Assembly (NCBI RefSeq): GCF_014202505.1
Contig: NZ_JACHGW010000002.1
Span: 1,364,001-1,428,000 of the forward strand
Direction: 5' to 3'
DNA length: 64,000 bases
Source of the DNA: Armatimonas rosea
Lineage (GTDB): Bacteria; Armatimonadota; Armatimonadia; Armatimonadales; Armatimonadaceae
Shown: piece after piece, positions 1,202 through 52,126 of the stretch
Position numbering within the stretch: position 1 is the stretch's first letter
Layout of the letters: each line of letters begins with the position of its first letter
Translations under genes and position numbers: made by a program
Notes under the pieces: model-generated
Database searches by the model: none
What the model was told of the DNA's origin: nothing
Seen by the model: the letters and a program-made list of their open reading frames with translations, nothing else

Positions 1202-1954
1202 ATGATTGTAACGGTTTGGGGGGAGAACCTCCACGAGCAACAGCATGAGGCGGTGCAAAAGGTCTATCCTAACGGTATGCACAACGCCATCGCCGAGGGG
1301 CTACGAGAGCTCCTTGGGGAAGCCGCTACGGTGCGTACCGCGACCCTGGATCAGCCGGAGCATGGCCTGACCGATGAGATCTTGGCTAGCACCGATGTCC
1401 TGACCTGGTGGGGGCACATGGGCCATGACAAGGTAGACGATGCCGTTGTCACTAAGGTCCACCAGCGCGTGCTGGAGGGGATGGGGCTGATTGTCCTGCA
1501 CTCGGGGCACTTCTCCAAGATCTTCCGCAAGCTCATGGGAACTACCTGCGGGCTGATCTGGCGTGACGACGATGTTGAGCGTGTCTGGACCGTGCGTCCG
1601 GGGCACCCGATCACCGAGGGTCTTCCTCCCGTCTTCACGGTCCCGGATACCGAGATGTACGGCGAGTTCTTTGATATTCCCCAGCCCGACGAGCTAATCT
1701 TTATCTCCAGCTACGGCGGCGGCGAGGTCTTTCGCTCGGGGTGCTGCTGGAGTCGAGGGCGCGGCAAGGTCTTCTACTTCTCGCCTGGCCACGAGACCTA
1801 CCCGATCTACTACCAGCCAGAGATTCGGCGCGTGATCGCCAATGCTTGTAAGTGGGCCGCACCGACCACCGAGCTGGGAATCCGTGTCTGTCCCCACGCC
1901 CCCAAGGGCTGGTTTGAGACCAACCCCAATCTCGGCTGGGAGAAAAAGTCGTGA
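1202..1954 (+). CDS. ThuA-like (trehalose utilisation family) protein
   Basis: About 250 residues of the ThuA class, a glutamine-amidotransferase-like fold often found beside sugar dehydrogenases. Seen: [26 protein letters not shown] and the C-terminal [20 protein letters not shown], which resemble ThuA-like proteins. I place the start at ATG 1202 because GGAGAG (1189-1194) sits 7 bases before it; an upstream TTG at 1187 would overlap the terminator. The stop overlaps the GTG of the following Gfo/Idh/MocA gene by 4 bases, so the two are translationally coupled. Likely role: cytosolic metabolism of a sugar or sugar derivative; substrate unknown. Confidence 0.87.
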
Positions 1955-2958
1955 GAAAGGCGCTCTTGGTCGGGGCGGGCGGGATGGGGCAGGCGTGGGC
2001 CAAGAACCTCGTCGCCCACGCCGATCAGGTCGCCTTTGCCGGCTGGGTGGATATCCGCGATGGTGCTGCCGCTGCCGCCGCGGAGAAGCACGCGCTCTCG
2101 GGGCTCTGGACGGGCACCGAGCTAGAGAAGGCCATCGCGGAGGTTCAGCCCGACTTTGTCGTGGATGTCACTATCCCGGAGGCCCACCACCATGTCACCC
2201 TCACCGCGCTGGCACACGGCATCCCGGTGATTGGCGAGAAGCCGATGGCGCACTCGATGGAGGCGGCACGGGCGATGGTGGCAGCGAGTGAGAGGGCGGG
2301 CAAGCTCTACATGGTGAGCCAGTCCCGCCGCTACGACAACCGCATCCGCGCCTACCGTCGGCTGATCGAGAAGACCTGCGGCCCGCTAGGAATCCTCAAC
2401 GCCGACTTCTATATCGGGGCACACTTTGGGGGCTTCCGCGACGAGATGGACCATGTCTTGCTTCTGGACATGGCGATCCATACGTTTGATCAGGCACGCT
2501 ATCTCTCCGGAGCCGATCCGGTGGCGGTCTATGCCGAGGAGTTCAATCCCGCTTGGTCCTGGTACAAAGGGGCGGCATCGGCGACCTGCCTCTTCGAGAT
2601 GGCCAATGGCCTGCGCTTTACCTACCGCGGCTCCTGGTGCGCGGAGGGCCTGCACACCAGCTGGGAGTGCGAGTGGCGCGCCAGCGGAGCAACCGGGACA
2701 GCGCTCTGGGACGGCCACAGCACCGTAAAGGGCGCCAAAGTGACCGGCACCGAGGGCTTCCACTACGCCACGGAGCCCACCGACGAGCCCATTCTTGAGG
2801 AAGTTGCGGGCGGAATCGCGGGGAGCCTTGAGGACTTCCTACACGCGCTCGAAACCGGAGCCACCCCCATGGGCGAGTGCCACGACAATATCAAGAGCCT
2901 CGCGATGGTCTTCGCCGCGGTCGAGTCTGCCACCACCGGCAAGCGCGTCACGATCTAA
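1951..2958 (+). CDS. Gfo/Idh/MocA family NAD(P)-dependent oxidoreductase
   Basis: 335 residues. The N-terminal Rossmann fold shows [10 protein letters not shown] near residue 7, and the family motif GEKPMA appears near residue 97. The C-terminal half is the alpha/beta domain that holds the substrate. GTG start overlapping the stop of the ThuA-like gene (GTGA). The ThuA/Gfo-Idh-MocA pairing is a common catabolic unit for disaccharides or inositol-like compounds; the substrate cannot be read from the sequence. The gene ends just before an inverted-repeat element. Confidence 0.92.
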
Positions 2959-2962
2959 ACCA

Positions 2963-3041
2963 GCCCCCTGACCCTCGCACGCGGGGGAACCGTAAGGAAT
3001 CGGAATCCTTGTATTTCCCCCAATCTTGGGGGTCAGGGGGC
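2963..3041. repeat. Inverted-repeat intergenic element, family 1 copy A
   Basis: Outer arms GCCCCCTGACCC (2963-2974) and GGGTCAGGGGGC (3030-3041) are a perfect 12-bp inverted repeat. Inside are a second G5/C5 pair (GGGGGAA near 2983 and TTCCCCC near 3015) and a small AAGGA/TCCTT hairpin. The layout and length match the element at 44141-44216. The right arm overlaps the last codons of the minus-strand gene ending at 3033. It could act as a bidirectional transcription barrier, but there is no T-run. Confidence 0.8.
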
Positions 3042-3560
3042 CTCGGGCAAGCGGCTCTCGCGGAGCATCTGGACGGTCCAGATGCCGGTGAAGAGCATAA
3101 AGCCGATAAAGTAGACAAAGAACAGCCCCCCGAGCTGATTGCCGCCGCTGAGGTTTGCCAGGAAGCAGCTGTGCATCACCGCCATCAGAAACGCACCGGT
3201 GGCGATCCCAAAGACCGACATCTGGTGCCCTAGGCGTGCAATTGTCTGCTCCCACCGCTCGGGGGCGAGCCAGTACTCTTTATTGGGCAGGTTGATCATG
3301 TCGTTGGGGGTCTTCTTCAAGATGGCGCCTATCCCGATCCACATCAGCGAGAAGATGCTCACCAGGGCCAAGTAGAAGATCATAAAGCTGGTCTTGCTCA
3401 TCCAGCCATCTGCCTGTCCCGATGGCCCAAAGTGCGAGGCCATCTTCTCGGGGAGGGCGCTGTAGTAGTAGGCGCAGTGCGCGGCGGCCAGCGCAGGGAG
3501 TACCAGAAGGGTCTTCTGTGCCCAGCTCAGGGGGCGCTTCTCTTGTTGCTGTTGTTGCAT
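3033..3560 (-). CDS. DUF1648-type membrane protein
   Basis: 175 residues with about four membrane helices. The N-terminal part contains YYYSALPEKMASHFGPSGQADGWMSK, matching the DUF1648 pattern of short membrane proteins related to SdpI (P-x-H-F-x-x-x-G-x-x-D-x-W). Start chosen at ATG 3560 because GAGGTA lies 7 bases before it; an upstream in-frame ATG would add 23 residues without a ribosome site. The N-terminus has a run of five glutamines. Function unknown; DUF1648 proteins are often linked to immunity against or sensing of toxic peptides, which is not shown here. Confidence 0.75.
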   Translation of the reverse strand: MQQQQQEKRPLSWAQKTLLVLPALAAAHCAYYYSALPEKMASHFGPSGQADGWMSKTSFMIFYLALVSIFSLMWIGIGAILKKTPNDMINLPNKEYWLAPERWEQTIARLGHQMSVFGIATGAFLMAVMHSCFLANLSGGNQLGGLFFVYFIGFMLFTGIWTVQMLRESRLPEAP

Positions 3561-3619
3561 GAAAGTTACCTCATCTAGCAGAAATGATACCTGAATCCGT
3601 TTTTTGTTGCGGTCGGTGG

Positions 3620-3625
3620 TAGAAT
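3620..3625 (+). promoter_or_regulatory. Probable -10 box for smc
   Basis: TAGAAT nine bases before the smc ATG, with no Shine-Dalgarno between. A transcript from it would have a leader of about 2-3 bases. No convincing -35 was seen. Confidence 0.5.
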
Positions 3626-3634
3626 GCAACGTTT

Positions 3635-23809: not shown

Positions 23810-23953
23810 TGCGAGGGGTTGAAAATTCCTCGCTGAACGCCTTCGGCGGAATGTCCTGCCGGACGAGGAGGTGTGGACTTACCCGCCCGTGAGGGCGTTC
23901 GGCAACGCCCAGAGGGCACCCGGCCCCTAGCGAGGGATTTTCAACCCCTCGCA
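23810..23953. repeat. 144-bp inverted-repeat element with 25-bp arms
   Basis: Arms at 23810-23834 and 23929-23953 match at 24 of 25 positions. Each arm itself contains GAGGGGTTGAAAATTCCTC-type symmetry around TTGAAA. The inside holds further small hairpins (AACGCC/GGCGTT). It has the build of a MITE or palindromic repeat, and no coding capacity. It lies between the bioY start and the first Tat lipoprotein gene, ending 37 bases before that gene's -10 box. Confidence 0.82.
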
Positions 23954-41721: not shown

Positions 41722-42795
41722 TCACGATGTGCACTCGAACAGCTTGATGTGCCCAAAGTCCGGGGAACGGCCCTCTTTGTTCTTCTTCTCTTGGCTCGTC
41801 GCTCCCGCAAGCGCGAGCAGCGCCCCGCCGTGCAGCCAGAGCGAGTCGGTGATGCGCATCTTGCTATCGACCCCTTGGACCAGGCTACCGGAGCCGGCGT
41901 CGAAGAGCCCCGCGTTCCACTTGCCCTGCGCGATCTTGCCTGCCATCACAAAGTGCTTCTGGTTAGGGTGAAAGCGTAGGGACTCCATCAGCCCCGCGCC
42001 CGCATCGGACGCCCGAATCTCGGCGACTTTTCGTGGGGGCGTCTCGCTCCAGGCGAAGCGCTGCCAGGTCTGCTTGCCATTGCCCGCCATCGGGTCCTCC
42101 ATCGGACCCATGCCACAGGCGAGCAGCTCCTTGCTATCGGGGGTGAAGGCGAGGTCGAAGATACCGCCGATATAGTTCGGGCTCTTGATGATCCCCCAGC
42201 AGGTAAAGTCTGGCGTGGTCCAGGCCGCGAGCTGCTTGCCGCTCTCCAGGTCCCAGACCCGAATCTCCCCCATGAGGTTGGCGGCCGCCAGGTAGCGGTT
42301 GTTGGGGCTAAAGGCCACCGAGAGAACAGGAGGGACATGCGAGAGAGCCCAGCGCAGGGCTCCTGTCTCGGTATCGTAGACCTTGACACTGGGCTCGCGC
42401 TCGGCGGCGGGCTCGTACTTGTAGCCGCCCGCAAGATACTGCCCTGTGACACTCGCCACCAGCCGCTCATCGGGGGAGAGCCGTAGCTTCCACGACCAAA
42501 AACTGTGTGCCTTGACCGTGCGCAGCTCTTTGTTCTCGGTGGGGGAGAACCAGCGCAGGGTGCCGTCGTAGCCCGCCGAGAGCACCTGCTGGCTCTTGCT
42601 CAGGTAGCACACCCCGCTGGCGTAGCTCTCGTGCTTGCCGAGGCGCTGGGGGACACCCGACTCCACCGGCACCGCCCAGACACCGCCATCCAGGCAGGCC
42701 GCGAAGAGCTGCTTGCTATCGGGGGACGCCGCGACCGCGAGCACCGCGGTGGGGAGCTTCAGGTCTTTCAGGGGCTTGAGGGTGGGCTCGCTCAT
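41722..42795 (-). CDS. WD40-like beta-propeller protein
   Basis: 357 residues, about seven WD40 blades: VLAVAASPDSKQLFAACLDGGVWAVPVESG, GVCYLSKSQQVLSAGYDGTLRWFSPTE, SVAFSPNNRYLAAANLMGEIRVWDLESGK and others. No signal peptide. Its start overlaps the stop of the DUF1501 gene (ATGA). Last gene of the peptidase / cytochrome-type / DUF1501 operon. WD40 proteins commonly accompany DUF1549-DUF1553-DUF1501 clusters in planctomycetes, where their role is still unclear. Confidence 0.87.
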   Translation of the reverse strand: MSEPTLKPLKDLKLPTAVLAVAASPDSKQLFAACLDGGVWAVPVESGVPQRLGKHESYASGVCYLSKSQQVLSAGYDGTLRWFSPTENKELRTVKAHSFWSWKLRLSPDERLVASVTGQYLAGGYKYEPAAEREPSVKVYDTETGALRWALSHVPPVLSVAFSPNNRYLAAANLMGEIRVWDLESGKQLAAWTTPDFTCWGIIKSPNYIGGIFDLAFTPDSKELLACGMGPMEDPMAGNGKQTWQRFAWSETPPRKVAEIRASDAGAGLMESLRFHPNQKHFVMAGKIAQGKWNAGLFDAGSGSLVQGVDSKMRITDSLWLHGGALLALAGATSQEKKNKEGRSPDFGHIKLFECTS

Positions 42796-44129
42796 TTCAG
42801 GATCTCCCGAATCGGCTCGGCGCGGTCCTCGACACGGTAGAAGGTCGGGATATCGTCGGCCTCGTACTCCGCGTAGGGATCAAGGCCCAGCGCGGTAAAG
42901 ATAGTCGCGAAGAGGTTTTTCTCGTTGTAGGGCTTCTCGGTCACATCGACTCCATCGGTATCGGTCGCGCCCACCACGACACCCCGCTTGATCCCCGCGC
43001 CGGCCATGGCCAGGCTCCAGGCATCGGGGTAGTGGTCGCGGCCACGGGCGGCGTTGAGCCAGGGGGTCCGGCCAAACTCGCCCATCACCACCACGAGGGT
43101 CTTGTCCAGCAGGCCACGCTCCTCTAGGTCGTTGATCAGGTGCGCGACAATCCGATCCGTCTCCGGGACCAGCATCTGGTAGATCTCGTGCTGGAAGACA
43201 TGGCAGTCCCAGGGCATCCCATTGGCCACCATCACAAACGGAGCGCCGTTCTCCACCAGGTTGCGCGCCAGGAGCGTGTGGAGCCCGAAGGTCCCCGGCC
43301 CGTAGCGCTCGCGGTCCTTGGGATTGACTTTATCTAGGTCAAAGAGATCGGCGCAGCTCATCAGGCCCTTCACCCGGGAGAAGATCGCATTCTGGGAGCT
43401 GGCTGCTGCGCTGGTGCGCTCGTTCTCGTACTTCTTGGTCAGGAACCGACGGAGCGCCTCGCGCTGCTCAAAGTCTTGGGTGGTCGTGTCGGCGAGGCGG
43501 TTGACATCGGCGAGCTTGTACTGACCGCCCGCCCGCACCGGCCCGTACTGCGCGCCCAGCCAGCCCGCCCAGTTGCCCGCCTTGAACGACTCAAACTCAT
43601 TGCCGCGGGGGTTGGGATCGAGAAAGACAAAGTTGGGGATGGGATTATCGAGGTGCCCGAGCTGCTGTGCCAGCACCGAGCCCAGGATCGGGCGCACAAA
43701 GGGCTCGCGCGGCGCGGCACCGCGGGTCAGAAGGTCGATGGCCTGGAAGTGCTCGTTGGGCTTTGTCTTCATCGAGCGCACGACAGCCAGCTTATCGGCG
43801 ATCTTGGCGCAGCTGGGCATGAGCTCGCTGAACTGGACACCGGGAAGCTTGGTGGGAATCGCGCGGAACGGTCCGCCAAAGACACTGCCGGGCTTGGGGT
43901 CCCAGGTCTCAAACTGGCTGGGGGCACCACAGAGCCAGAGCAGGATGCAGTGCTTCTGCTGGCGCTTGGCCTCCGCCGCGAGCGCCGCGGGGGAGAAGAG
44001 CCCGGTCCAGCTGAGCGCCGATGCCGCGCCCGCGCCCACAAGTCCTTGGAGAAAGAGCCGCCGGTGGAGTGTGTGCTCCGGAGGCGTGCAGCTCCCCTCC
44101 TCTGCAATCGTTGTCTCGTCGTCGTTCAT
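42792..44129 (-). CDS. DUF1501 domain protein (Tat-exported)
   Basis: 445 residues. Twin-arginine signal LHRRLFLQGLVGAGAASALS with a cleavage region near AALAAEA; then KHCILLWLCGAPSQFETWDPKPG, the DUF1501 hallmark related to sulfatase/alkaline-phosphatase folds, and later VVVMGEFGRTPWLN and GRDHYPDAWSLAMAGAGIKRG. In known genomes it follows a DUF1549/DUF1553 cytochrome-like partner, as here; the pair is thought to act outside the cytoplasm on sulfated or other polymers. An inverted-repeat element separates it from that partner. Confidence 0.92.
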   Translation of the reverse strand: MNDDETTIAEEGSCTPPEHTLHRRLFLQGLVGAGAASALSWTGLFSPAALAAEAKRQQKHCILLWLCGAPSQFETWDPKPGSVFGGPFRAIPTKLPGVQFSELMPSCAKIADKLAVVRSMKTKPNEHFQAIDLLTRGAAPREPFVRPILGSVLAQQLGHLDNPIPNFVFLDPNPRGNEFESFKAGNWAGWLGAQYGPVRAGGQYKLADVNRLADTTTQDFEQREALRRFLTKKYENERTSAAASSQNAIFSRVKGLMSCADLFDLDKVNPKDRERYGPGTFGLHTLLARNLVENGAPFVMVANGMPWDCHVFQHEIYQMLVPETDRIVAHLINDLEERGLLDKTLVVVMGEFGRTPWLNAARGRDHYPDAWSLAMAGAGIKRGVVVGATDTDGVDVTEKPYNEKNLFATIFTALGLDPYAEYEADDIPTFYRVEDRAEPIREILK

Positions 44130-44140
44130 CTATTTTTTTG

Positions 44141-44216
44141 CCCCCTAACCCCCGTGCAACGGGGGGAATAGTAGGAATGTTCTGATCAGTCCCCCCGCCA
44201 GGCGGGGGTTAGGGGG
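44141..44216. repeat. Inverted-repeat intergenic element, family 1 copy B
   Basis: Outer arms CCCCCTAACCCCCG (44141-44154) and CGGGGGTTAGGGGG (44203-44216) are perfect over 14 bp; inner arms CGGGGGG (44160-44166) and CCCCCCG (44191-44197) are perfect over 7 bp. Same design and almost the same size as 2963-3041, including an AGGAAT in the centre. It lies inside an apparent operon, between the cytochrome-type gene and the DUF1501 gene. Confidence 0.82.
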
Positions 44217-44220
44217 GACA

Positions 44221-46212
44221 TTAGTGGTTCACCTGGAACTCGGCACTGGTGAGCAGGGCCCACAAGAGATTCTGGACACCGCGCTCCGCCGAGGGCGTGG
44301 TGGTAAGCAGGGCCTTGCACTGCACCAGCTCGGTCGGGTCCGGGAGGCGGGCGAAGGCGAGCTGGAAGGCGGCGCGAACCCGGGCCTCGGGGGTGGGAAG
44401 CGCCGCGAGGGCCGCGGTGGCGTTGCCGGGGGCGGGCTTGAGCAGTCTATCGACCAGCGGCGAGTTGGTCAGAAAGAGCGCTTGCTGCAGTGATGGATTA
44501 TAGGTGTCGGGCATGAGCTCGGGGAAGGCGGTGATAAAGCCGCTCTCTAGCTTCTCGGTCTCGGGGCTATCGGGCTTGGTTCCCGTGGCCACTTGGAGCG
44601 AGTGCAGGAGCTGCTCGGCGGAGAGGGGGCGCTCTAGGGCACGCGCAAACGACTCCGGTCGGGGTGGGGTCTTGCCCGCAACCTTGGTGTCGAGCTGGTA
44701 GGCACGGGTCAGGACAATGGTCGTGACAAGCCGCTTGATGTCGTAGCCGCTGCGCTCGAAGTCCTTGGCGAGCCAGTCGAGGAGCTCGGGGTGGCTGGCG
44801 CGGTGCTTGGAGTCGATTTGATCGACCGGCTGGACAAAGCCGCGGCCCATGAGCTTGGCCCATATCCGATTGACAAAGGCGCGTGCCAGCAGGGGATTGT
44901 CGTGGGTCACCGCCTCGGCGAGGGCCTCACGACGGGAGAACTTGGGCACTGCGGCGCGCCCCGGCGTGGGCGGAACGACGTAGAGCTCGGGCCTATCGAC
45001 CTCTTTTTCATCGGTGGCGGGCACCCGCTCCGCGACAGACTTGCCATTCAGAAAGACCAGCGCCGCGGGCTGGGACTCTTTCTTGAGGTTGGCGAAGTTG
45101 ATAAAGCCGCCAATCGCGCTCTCCGCGACCGCCTGGCCCATGCCGGTGTCAACATTCTTCCCGCGGTTGAAGGCCGCTACCAGGCCCCAGTAGTGCCGCT
45201 GCTCGATCTCCCAGGCCAGCGGGTGGTTGTGGCACTGGGCACACCCGATCTTCACCCCAAAGGCCACGGGGGCAACTGCCTCCGCGATCGACTGGAAGTT
45301 GTTGTTGCGGGCCGCCAAAAACCAGGTCGCGCCTCGGGCTGGTCCGTCGCTGGGACGCGCGATCAGGAGCTCACGCACCACCTGATCCCAAGGGCGGTTC
45401 CGCCGAAAGGTATCTTCCAGGTAGGTGTTCCACGCCCCGTTCTTACCCAAGCGGCGGCCCATCAGGAGCGTGTCAAAGACCTCGCGGAAGTGGCGCACGT
45501 AGTCGTCGGAGGCCAGGAGCTTGCTCACCAGCTGTGCGCGCTTGTCGCCGTGGTAGTCGCCCAGAAACTGCTTGAGCTCCGTGTCGCTGGGGATACGCCC
45601 CGCCAGATCCAGATAGACACGCCGGGCGAAAGCGGTATCGCTGGTAGGGCGGGCAGGCGTGATACGATCCGCTTTCCAGCTCGCCTGCAAGTACCAGTCG
45701 ATGGTCGCGCTGGGGCTCTGGCCCGGTGGCGGAGTCCCCACCGACGGTAGCGAGCGCTGGTAGCTCTCCAGGTAGGCGGGCACCCAGGTGTTGTTCTTCG
45801 TGGTCGCCGCCGGGGTGGGGGGCAGGAGCGTGATCCAGGTCTTGAGGATCGTGATGGCATCGGCGCTGAGCTGCTTCTTCGGGTCGGGCGGCATGTGCGG
45901 CCCCGGCTGGGGCAGGACATACTGGACCAGGCGGCTCTGGTCGGGCTTTCCGGGAATCACGGCGGGGCCTTGGTCGCCGCCGCGCAGGATGGTCTGGAGC
46001 GAGCGCAGGTCCAGGCCGCCTTGCTGACGCACACCCGCGTGGCACTTGAGGCAAGACCTATCCAGCAGCGGCTCGACCTGGCGGTACCAGTACTCCTCCG
46101 GGTTCTTGGTCGGCTCCTGGCTCCGCGCAGGCGCAAGGCAGGACAGGAGCCCCAGAAGGCACAGAACAGCACGTCCGAGCGAGAGAGGAGAGAGAGTTGC
46201 CACGCTTCCCAT
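44221..46212 (-). CDS. PSCyt1 / DUF1549 / DUF1553 protein (cytochrome-type, exported)
   Basis: 663 residues. Signal peptide MGSVATLSPLSLGRAVLCLLGLLSCLAPARS; haem-c motif CLKCH at residues 54-58 (planctomycete cytochrome C domain 1); DUF1549 region with FARRVYLDLAGRIPSDTELKQFL and a second CAQCH near residue 322; DUF1553 in the second half (FSRREALAEAVTHDNPLLARAFVNRIWAKLMGRGFV). Start at ATG 46212, where the signal peptide begins, 14 bases after the peptidase stop. Exported c-type cytochrome partner of DUF1501; electron-transfer role inferred. Confidence 0.92.
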   Translation of the reverse strand: MGSVATLSPLSLGRAVLCLLGLLSCLAPARSQEPTKNPEEYWYRQVEPLLDRSCLKCHAGVRQQGGLDLRSLQTILRGGDQGPAVIPGKPDQSRLVQYVLPQPGPHMPPDPKKQLSADAITILKTWITLLPPTPAATTKNNTWVPAYLESYQRSLPSVGTPPPGQSPSATIDWYLQASWKADRITPARPTSDTAFARRVYLDLAGRIPSDTELKQFLGDYHGDKRAQLVSKLLASDDYVRHFREVFDTLLMGRRLGKNGAWNTYLEDTFRRNRPWDQVVRELLIARPSDGPARGATWFLAARNNNFQSIAEAVAPVAFGVKIGCAQCHNHPLAWEIEQRHYWGLVAAFNRGKNVDTGMGQAVAESAIGGFINFANLKKESQPAALVFLNGKSVAERVPATDEKEVDRPELYVVPPTPGRAAVPKFSRREALAEAVTHDNPLLARAFVNRIWAKLMGRGFVQPVDQIDSKHRASHPELLDWLAKDFERSGYDIKRLVTTIVLTRAYQLDTKVAGKTPPRPESFARALERPLSAEQLLHSLQVATGTKPDSPETEKLESGFITAFPELMPDTYNPSLQQALFLTNSPLVDRLLKPAPGNATAALAALPTPEARVRAAFQLAFARLPDPTELVQCKALLTTTPSAERGVQNLLWALLTSAEFQVNH

Positions 46213-46226
46213 ATTAGCACACTGCC

Positions 46227-48050
46227 TCAGCAATTGGAGCGAAGAAACGCCAGAATATGCTCGGTAAAGCCAATCGACTGCTCGGTATTGCCCACACCGT
46301 GCCCGGCATCGAACCAGAGCACCTCGATCTGCTTGCCGAGCTCCTTGAGCTGCGCCTCGTAGACCTCCATCTGCCGACGGGGACAGCGGGTGTCGTTGAG
46401 GCCCTGAACCACCAGAACCGGGGCCTGGATCGCCGCGGCGTAGGTGTGCGGCGAGCTGCGCTCCCAGAGCGCTGGGTTCTGGTCGGGGGTGCTTTGGAAG
46501 CTGGCACGCATGATCCCTTGGAGCAAGGGCGACGAGTCTTCGTAGGTGAGGGCGTTGTTGGCGATGGCGACATGGGCCACGCCCGCTGCCCAGAGCTCGG
46601 GGCACTTTCCGAGAGCAAGCAGGGTCAGGTAGCCCCCGTAGGAGCCGCCCGTGATGACGACACGCTTCGGGTCGGCGATCCCCTCGCTAACCACAAAGGC
46701 GTGCGCGGCGATTATATCCTCCAGCTCCCAGTGCCCGACATCGCCCCAGATCTTCTGCAAGAACTCCCGCCCAAACGTCGTCGAGCCGCGGTAGTTGACC
46801 GAGAGAAAGGCGTAGCCGTTTTCCAGATAGGGAGCGCCCATGCCAAAGCTCTGGTTGGTGACTCCGTGTGGCCCGCCATGTACCTCGATCACGGTCGGAA
46901 ATGGCCCCGCGCCCTCAGGGGTCGCCAGCCAGGCCTGCACGGGCACGCCATCCGACGACGGAAAGGTCACCGAGCGTACGGTTGTCCCTTGCGGTGCCTC
47001 GCCGCCCGAGAGGAGCACTCTCCCTGCACCGCTCGCCGAGAACGCCAGGAGCTGACGCGGCTGCTGTGCGCTGGAAAAGAGAACGCTCGCCACACCGTCG
47101 TTGCTCAGAGTCGCCCCCAGCCCTCCAAAGTACGTGATGGTCCCCGACGGGTGCTCCAGCCGTGTGAGCTTTCCTGCCTTCCAAACCCAGAGCTCGTGCG
47201 CGGCGTCCACGCTCCGGCACAGCAGGATACTCTTGGCGTCCGGCGACCAGCAGAGCGGCACGACCTCACCGGGAAGCTGTCCCTCGCCCAAGAGAAGCTC
47301 GGACTCGCCCAGGGCGACGTCCCAGAGCAGCGGGCGCTTCACCCCGGAGTCATCGCTGGTGCAGAGCAAGCGGTAGTCGCCGGGGATCGGGGAGAACGCC
47401 GTGGTCTCCAGGCTGGTCGGCCCCCAGCCCTTCCAGCGCGCGAGCTCCTCGCCCTGCGTGTCGAGTACGAGCAGGTCATACTGTTGCTTGCCGGTGCGCT
47501 CGTTGGTGCAGACCACACAGACCGCGCCATCCGCCGAGAGAATCGGGCCACGCAGGAGCGGCTTGCCTTCGTGTAAGATCTTCGGCGCACCCAGCGCTCC
47601 GTCCTTCGCAATCTCAACGGTGCACAGGTGGTAGCCGTCGCCGTCGACAAAGATAAACGCAATGCGGTTGCCCGAGGCGCTCATCGAGACAATCGGTAGC
47701 GGAAACGGGGTCAGCGACGAGGAGTACGGGGCAAAGTCGGGCGTGAGGCTCTCTAGCTCCCCGGTGCCATCGTAGCGGGCGCGGACATAGTGCCCCTTCT
47801 CGTTGCCCTTGGTGTCCTTGAAGAAGTAGAACCACTCGCCATCGGGGGAGAGCAATCCAAAGCCGCTTCCCACGCCCTCCGGCAACAAACGCCGCGTCTC
47901 CCCGGTCTGCGGGTTCCATGCCAGCGCTCCCCGCTGGCTATGAAACGCCACCCCACGCTCCGGCCGCTTCGCCGCGAGCTGCGGCCACGTCACCGACCCG
48001 GTGCGGGCGATCTGCTTCCAATTCTCCGTGGTTGTGCTTGCTGTGCTCAT
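46227..48050 (-). CDS. S9 family peptidase (prolyl oligopeptidase-like)
   Basis: 607 residues. The N-terminal half is a beta-propeller-like region and the C-terminal half an alpha/beta hydrolase: VIEVHGGPHG, nucleophile Ser in ITGGSYGGYLTLLAL, Asp in GLNDTRCPRRQME and His in FDAGHGVG. No signal peptide, so cytosolic dipeptidyl/oligopeptidase or acylaminoacyl-peptidase type. First gene of the operon continuing to 41722. Start ATG 48050 has TATAAT six bases upstream. Confidence 0.92.
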   Translation of the reverse strand: MSTASTTTENWKQIARTGSVTWPQLAAKRPERGVAFHSQRGALAWNPQTGETRRLLPEGVGSGFGLLSPDGEWFYFFKDTKGNEKGHYVRARYDGTGELESLTPDFAPYSSSLTPFPLPIVSMSASGNRIAFIFVDGDGYHLCTVEIAKDGALGAPKILHEGKPLLRGPILSADGAVCVVCTNERTGKQQYDLLVLDTQGEELARWKGWGPTSLETTAFSPIPGDYRLLCTSDDSGVKRPLLWDVALGESELLLGEGQLPGEVVPLCWSPDAKSILLCRSVDAAHELWVWKAGKLTRLEHPSGTITYFGGLGATLSNDGVASVLFSSAQQPRQLLAFSASGAGRVLLSGGEAPQGTTVRSVTFPSSDGVPVQAWLATPEGAGPFPTVIEVHGGPHGVTNQSFGMGAPYLENGYAFLSVNYRGSTTFGREFLQKIWGDVGHWELEDIIAAHAFVVSEGIADPKRVVITGGSYGGYLTLLALGKCPELWAAGVAHVAIANNALTYEDSSPLLQGIMRASFQSTPDQNPALWERSSPHTYAAAIQAPVLVVQGLNDTRCPRRQMEVYEAQLKELGKQIEVLWFDAGHGVGNTEQSIGFTEHILAFLRSNC

Positions 48051-49263: not shown

Positions 49264-49315
49264 AGAAAGAACCTTCCGGGTAAAACCTTACGCCAGAGCC
49301 ATGCCAGAATCCTGC

Positions 49316-49432
49316 CCGGGGATTGAAATCCCCGGTAGATTTTTTAAGAGCGTCCCGAGGACGCAGAAACTCCCTTGGTTTTCGCGTCCTCGGGACGCTC
49401 CCTGCCTTGTGCCGGGGATTTCCAATCCCCGG
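49316..49432. repeat. Nested inverted-repeat element
   Basis: Outer arms CCGGGGATTGAAATCCCCGG (49316-49335) and its inverted match (49412-49432, one extra C); each arm is itself a near-palindrome. Inner arms 49348-49364 and 49384-49400 form a perfect 17-bp repeat (GAGCGTCCCGAGGACGC) around an 19-base loop. Sits between the divergent Gfo/Idh/MocA and trmL genes. Confidence 0.82.
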
Positions 49433-49440
49433 CGACGCGG

Positions 49441-51846: not shown

Positions 51847-51948
51847 GGCTCCAATAGTCGGTTAAGATCGATTTTACGTCTCGAACCTTAATACCATTTT
51901 CCCCTAGGATCGCATAGGGAAACGTGTATAAAACTCCACATCCCTTCG

Positions 51949-52113
51949 GCATCCCTCCCCCGGCCCCTCCCTTCGCTCTGTTTCCCGCTTCGCGGGGACG
52001 AAGGGAGGGGAGACGAGGAACGAGTGGGGGTGGGTTTGGTAGATTCACCCCCTCCTTTCCCCCCAACGAAGTTGGGTTTCAGGGGAAGGGAGGGGGCCGG
52101 GGGGAGGGATGCC
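51949..52113. repeat. 165-bp G/C-skewed inverted-repeat element
   Basis: Left arm 51949-51974 (GGCATCCCTCCCCCGGCCCC...) and right arm 52085-52113 are near-perfect inverted repeats with a small insertion. The inside holds hairpins such as CCCCTCCCTTCG/CGAAGGGAGGGG and AACGAAGTT. It lies in the 280-bp space between the ankyrin fusion and the M55 peptidase; nothing else is seen there except a TAAAAT promoter near 51875 for the ankyrin gene. Confidence 0.78.
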
Positions 52114-52126
52114 GGGAGGCCGGTGC

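Follow-up and report, generated by a model that had tools for sequence, protein, structure and literature searches.

A REPIN-like repeat family in Armatimonas rosea whose ends also enclose a DUF559 nuclease gene

REPINs, the REP doublets described by Bertels and Rainey (2011; PMC3116915), disperse as a unit made of two REP hairpins in inverted orientation and a short spacer between them, and may be depicted either as a single hairpin or as a clover. REPs tagged GTAG or CGTC, described together with TIRtrons (Di Nocera et al. 2013; PMC3733652), supply stop codons from their termini, lie next to gene 3' ends and have intragenic copies; the same paper reports Y1 genes that have long inverted repeats at both ends. 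RAYTs have been put forward as the enzymes that move REP repeats. Rickettsia palindromic elements (RPEs; PMC10969869) are palindromes of some 150 bp that sit in frame in unrelated protein genes and are translated as a peptide; no source element is known for them. Homing endonucleases (reviewed in PMC3943268) are small nucleases encoded within conserved genes. Here we describe a repeat family, Family 1, that shares features with each of these systems.

The starting point was a window of 64,000 nucleotides from Armatimonas rosea (contig NZ_JACHGW010000002.1, positions 1,364,001 to 1,428,000), meaning the whole stretch of DNA that was analysed. A preliminary description of it had reported two inverted repeats of 76-79 bp with an AGGAAT centre. 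Both elements, E1 and E2, are located where it placed them, both carry AGGAAT in the centre, and their perfect outer arms (CCCCCTGAC in E1, CCCCCTAAC in E2) span 77 bp and 76 bp, respectively. As single-stranded RNA, both fold far more stably than shuffled sequences (z = -6.1 for E1 and -5.7 for E2; none of 200 shuffles equalled either), and neither matched Rfam. The two elements belong to different subfamilies, and their parts and neighbours are as follows; gene positions come from a home-made ORF caller, and gene names that lack Pfam support were assigned by inspection.

1951..2958, forward strand: oxidoreductase-like gene (function by inspection), stop codon 5 nt ahead of E1
2964..3040, forward strand: E1, complete REPIN-like unit, TGAC subfamily (covariance model E 1.6e-14)
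2964..2971, forward strand: left outer arm of E1, CCCCCTGA
2972..2987, forward strand: first local hairpin of E1, CCCTCGCACGCGGGGG
2988..3016, forward strand: centre of E1 with the palindrome AGGAATCGGAATCCTT
3017..3032, forward strand: second local hairpin of E1, CCCCCAATCTTGGGGG
3033..3040, reverse strand: right outer arm of E1, which reads CCCCCTGA on this strand; its TGA is the stop of gene 3033-3629
3033..3629, reverse strand: convergent membrane-protein-like gene (function by inspection) ending within E1
42792..44129, reverse strand: DUF1501-like gene downstream of E2 (function by inspection), start codon 11 nt from E2
44141..44216, reverse relative to the family alignment: E2, complete REPIN-like unit, TAAC subfamily (covariance model E 2.0e-17)
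44141..44148, forward strand: left outer arm of E2, CCCCCTAA
44149..44166, forward strand: local hairpin of E2, CCCCCGTGCAACGGGGGG
44167..44190, forward strand: centre of E2, including AGGAAT
44191..44208, forward strand: local hairpin of E2, CCCCCCGCCAGGCGGGGG
44209..44216, forward strand: right outer arm of E2, TTAGGGGG
44221..46605, reverse strand: DUF1549/DUF1553-like gene upstream of E2 (function by inspection), stop codon 4 nt from E2, start over-extended by the ORF lister

One copy does overlap the end of a coding sequence, and E1 provides the TGA stop of that convergent gene. The statement that the other copy interrupts an operon is fair, because E2 occupies the gap in a tandem gene pair, 4 nt after one stop codon and 11 nt before the next start.

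Seen within the window only, E1 and E2 might be chance G/C-rich palindromes: the window holds no more than two copies and, with one mismatch allowed, no excess of the 11-mer arm. Searches of the whole genome (6.33 Mb; 98% complete, 19 contigs) refute this reading. The two-arm pattern CCCCCTRACCCN30-58GGGTYAGGGGG has 17 exact copies and its reversed control none; at up to one mismatch, the half-unit CCCCCTRACCCCCN7GGGGG is matched 137 times, again against 0; and insertion differs between species. We consider chance to have almost no probability. A covariance model built from 15 copies found at least about 65 distinct loci with strands collapsed, a lower bound in that it scored 150 of 3472 first-look candidates, and a search with the same model found about 36 Family 1 copies in a sister species of the same genus. 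Hence, the dispersed REP- or MITE-like family that had been proposed exists, and the outcome that would have spoken against it, only two copies or none in relatives, did not occur. Among 61 relatives, Family 1 is essentially restricted to the genus, with weak model matches only elsewhere, for example 12 of the CCCCCTGGCCCCCCAATCCTGGGGGG type in one relative (G019, locus L052).

Family 1 is organised like a REPIN, with two REP units head to head. From one end to the other, a copy carries CCCCCTAA (or CCCCCTGA) as its outer arm and then a local hairpin of the form CCCCCGY-NNN-RCGGGGG; next come a centre resembling GGAATCCGATTCC, another local hairpin and the outer arm in inverted form. In the 15-copy alignment, which was fitted to neither structure, the pairs that close the triloops covary in both local hairpins (CG, UA or AU, complementary throughout), whereas the equivalent long-range positions do not pair in 5 of the 15 copies. 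A single long hairpin as the conserved fold was rejected as the worse fit in these 15 copies, a distinction that weakens over all 59 copies with surrounding sequence, where the local pair 2-6 is kept in 91 of 117 halves. Like REPINs (PMC3116915), Family 1 elements comprise two inverted hairpins, for which both the single-hairpin and the clover drawing are possible. They differ from REPINs in three respects: no RAYT is bounded by the Family 1 repeat, the larger relative described below carries a DUF559 gene, and many copies lie within coding sequence or are fused to it. The tags are also different, being mostly CCCCCTAA but also CCCCCTAG and CCCCCTGA; compared with the REPs of PMC3733652, the tag is CCCCCTRA and not GTAG or CGTC, and DUF559 is absent from that paper. 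We therefore do not file Family 1 as a RAYT REPIN, since it has neither the RAYT association nor the GTAG/CGTC tag, although it works like a REPIN or MITE.

We examined placement in the same 59 copies, with genes called by a simple codon-model caller. The family is high in copy number and dispersed, and most copies, 43, are intergenic; 34 of these lie in tandem, 8 in convergent and 1 in divergent gaps (background gaps 147, 29 and 40). The other 16 are inside ORFs, though about 90% of the sequence is coding. The median distance to adjacent 3' gene ends is 4.5 nt, and 13 elements, E1 among them, supply the stop codon of a gene that ends exactly in CCCCCTAA or CCCCCTGA. The intragenic copies nearly all use a single frame, xPLTPAxRGD..., which is stop-free in 91 of 118 readings compared with 49 and 17 for the other two frames. 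In an NRPS condensation domain, the sequence of a solved homologue continues unbroken where the element is inserted, which identifies the roughly 25 residues as a clean insert. In MetH, the Family 1 peptide falls within a loop, at a place where some ten homologous residues match poorly, and in QueG (L063) the solved homologue aligns only past the insertion point, so that a clean insert is not confirmed in this case; some N-terminal intragenic copies may lie upstream of the true start. There are precedents among other REPs for stop supply, proximity to 3' ends and intragenic copies (PMC3733652), and among RPEs for in-frame palindromes (PMC10969869). Family 1 resembles RPEs in inserting in frame into unrelated protein genes as a translated peptide; what sets it apart, by description and not by sequence, is a nuclease cassette with the same ends.

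Such placement could also be read as that of hairpins that spread by rare duplication only and are retained for a function in RNA, as 3'-end stabilisers, terminators or spacers between genes. Strong hairpins lie 3-11 nt past stop codons, and divergent gaps hold 1 of 43 intergenic copies against 40 of 216 background gaps, both as this reading would have it. It also gains from sites kept in both A. rosea and the sister species, the sole genome used to find empty sites: continuous alignments of syntenic stretches identify shared copies at C8:103730, C8:95285 and C2:214255, the last in a DUF1501-like gene. Against it stand the copies in ORFs, several gene pairs of the sister species with nothing comparable at the site, and orthologous sites that are empty. 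Four sites are filled in A. rosea and empty in its sister (C8:109001, C2:887026, C7:134907 and C1:1030426), and one (C96:6702 of the sister species) is filled there and empty in A. rosea. From these comparisons, the filled and empty sites of the genus's two species show recent movement. We regard maintenance as RNA elements as improbable; an RNA role can coexist with our main explanation as a secondary use.

Most Family 1 copies have no target-site duplication. Seven of 59 copies, compared with 1 of 590 mismatched pairs, have direct repeats of 8-12 nt on their flanks, at a variable distance from the arms, which differs from the constant-length duplication of a DDE-type MITE. At C1:1030426, for example, GCGGAGAAATA is repeated on either side of the element, which is absent there in the sister species. 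At one gene junction (L090 2530-2700 / L338), the same stop codon is followed by a Family 1 element in A. rosea and by a different palindromic element in its sister, which suggests landing sites common to different elements.

A larger relative, a possibility raised in the preliminary description, was found, with a nuclease gene inside. Among the matches listed, exact half-units face each other in inverted orientation at a distance of 0.1-2 kb only once, at C2:614517-615005, and between these Family 1 ends (locus C2:614512-615010) lies a DUF559 gene (C2:614557-614868; Pfam E 1.1e-30). Both ends of the family are therefore common to a larger gene-carrying element of the same genome, as for a MITE of a DUF559 cassette, and 17 of 118 REPIN halves match the end of the cassette exactly. 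The sister species has the same arrangement in the same place, beside an argG-like gene (named by inspection), so that each species has one intact cassette with Family 1 ends. At a third locus, C7:108267, the ends are related, the DUF559 gene is truncated by a deletion, and one end, GTATAAGGAATTTTT, is similar to the AATATAAGGAAT half of REPINs. In DUF559, E, D, EVD and H residues are invariant, and it matches a solved "endonuclease-like" homologue (3hrl) at E 1.5e-18; its match to a "mobile intron protein" (3r3p) is weak and not significant (E 0.33). No DUF559 remnants were seen beside solo half-units in the stretches examined. The relative with 12 weak model matches has neither a DUF559 nor a Y1_Tnp match and is an exception to the proposed link, and across the 61 relatives co-occurrence of model matches with DUF559 or Y1 did not discriminate between the two enzymes.

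Our preferred reading, to which we give a probability of roughly 0.58, is that Family 1 is a REPIN-like, non-autonomous miniature of the DUF559 nuclease cassette that arose by internal deletion; we infer that DUF559 drives its movement. The main rival is that Family 1 is a classical REPIN moved in trans by a Y1 (RAYT/IS200-like) transposase, with the DUF559 cassette a passenger that acquired REP ends. RAYTs are the proposed movers of the REPIN architecture (PMC3116915), and the genome has seven Y1_Tnp matches (the sister species has four), mostly in palindrome-bounded units. None of the Y1_Tnp genes of the genus that were examined, however, is bounded by Family 1; other palindromes bound eight of the nine loci tested, and two of these families have short elements of their own in the window. 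Moreover, all seven matches score as IS200/IS605-like and fall under the RAYT cut-off. IS200-type movement is not known to leave a target duplication, yet 8-12 nt repeats flank some Family 1 copies. We consider a Y1 enzyme acting in trans unlikely, yet still the strongest competitor. Of the REP or MITE family with a RAYT partner that was first envisaged, then, the family stands and the partner is not supported, most of the Y1_Tnp genes being flanked by other palindromes. In the window itself, the elements at 23810-23953 and 49314-49433 (GCGAGGGGTTGAAAATTCCTCGC and CCGGGGATTGAAATCCCCGG types) are similar to terminal repeats found at Y1_Tnp loci L018 and L016.

Under the DUF559 reading, Family 1 would have arisen by internal deletion from a larger cassette that has the same two REP ends around a gene for the restriction-endonuclease-like DUF559 nuclease. 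The nuclease, in cis or in trans, would recognise the C-tract hairpin ends and cut DNA, and repair or recombination would then copy the element into new sites. Copies would persist where harm is small: just past a stop codon, where CCCCCTAA or TGA provides a new stop, or in frame through the mostly stop-free PLTP frame. The link between a REPIN-like family and a DUF559 cassette appears to be the novel part. If true, it would tie a second, unrelated nuclease to a widespread type of REP as a testable alternative to RAYTs, and would hint at what a common domain of unknown function does.

To look beyond the genus, we compared the two 300-bp flanks of each DUF559 match with each other, the downstream flank as its reverse complement, using random pairings of different loci as the control. 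Flank scores of at least 20 were obtained for 6 of 8 loci in the genus (control 2 of 48), 11 of 24 in the rest of the phylum sample (1 of 144) and 9 of 31 in other phyla (3 of 186); about half of the tested DUF559 genes have no clear flanking repeats. Records from Bacteroidota, Nitrospirota and Ignavibacteria give as example ends GCCCCCTAACCCCCGAAGGGGG or ACCTCACCCCTAACCCCTCTCC-AATT-GGAGAGGGGA. The C-tract hairpin pattern is present in eight of nine DUF559-bearing genomes of such phyla, with 2 to 43 occurrences per genome on the two strands combined (control 0), several of them arranged in close inverted pairs. The DUF559 frame runs on within an ORF longer than 300 aa at 56 of 72 loci, and Pfam places the domain inside IleS, LeuS, ValS and RecG and in an N-terminal fusion to guanylate kinase. 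In IleS of L221, residues 480-640 replace 8 residues of a solved homologue in the alignment, and the junction peptide is PLTPEGG, the same frame as in Family 1. In Bacteroidota, DUF559 lies in frame in IleS, ValS, LeuS and RecG (L219, L221, L223, L243, L260, L275 and others), often in the same place across genera.

We tentatively propose that C-tract REP elements (CCCCCTAACCCCC- or CCTCACCCCTAACCCC-hairpins) form a class spanning phyla, with a DUF559 nuclease as its cognate mobility enzyme, an idea we hold with less confidence than the origin of Family 1 itself. The full cassette would enter ileS, leuS, valS and recG in frame without splicing, the miniatures would be the dispersed REPIN families, and in the window's genus the nucleases would be co-expressed with recombination/competence-type genes. 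This pairing would parallel that of RAYTs as proposed for GTAG REPs. Homing endonucleases (PMC3943268) are likewise small nucleases encoded within conserved genes, but DUF559 comes with no intron or intein and the host frames are uninterrupted; if the proposal is true, an element enters essential genes in frame with neither. We found no paper on DUF559 with C-tract palindromes in the open-licence literature; a Legionella study describes repeated transposase-DUF559 segments as recombination hotspots.

A motif, TTTTRTCAGA-N15-CCGTTNTA, has 20 matches in A. rosea and 16 in the sister species (control 0; loci L132, L139, L143, L147, L155 and L159 in A. rosea, and L142, L144, L146, L148, L150 and L152 in its sister) and precedes most Y1 and DUF559 genes of the genus. 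We rejected this common leader as part of the elements and regard it as promoter-like, because it also lies ahead of recA, radC, comEA-like, comM-like and rpsF genes. For the L149 protein, a sigma-like identity suggested by eye was dropped, as it has no Pfam match. Possibly, the motif marks a genus-specific recombination/competence regulon that includes mobile-element nucleases; it would then make the DUF559 and Y1 nucleases available alongside recombination functions.

The window holds a further C-tract inverted repeat, CCTCCCCCGGCCCCTCCCTTCG, at 51947-52114. By eye, it is like the repeats beside the DUF559 gene of L128, and also similar to a 205-bp element (L090 5714-5918) that is absent from the sister species.
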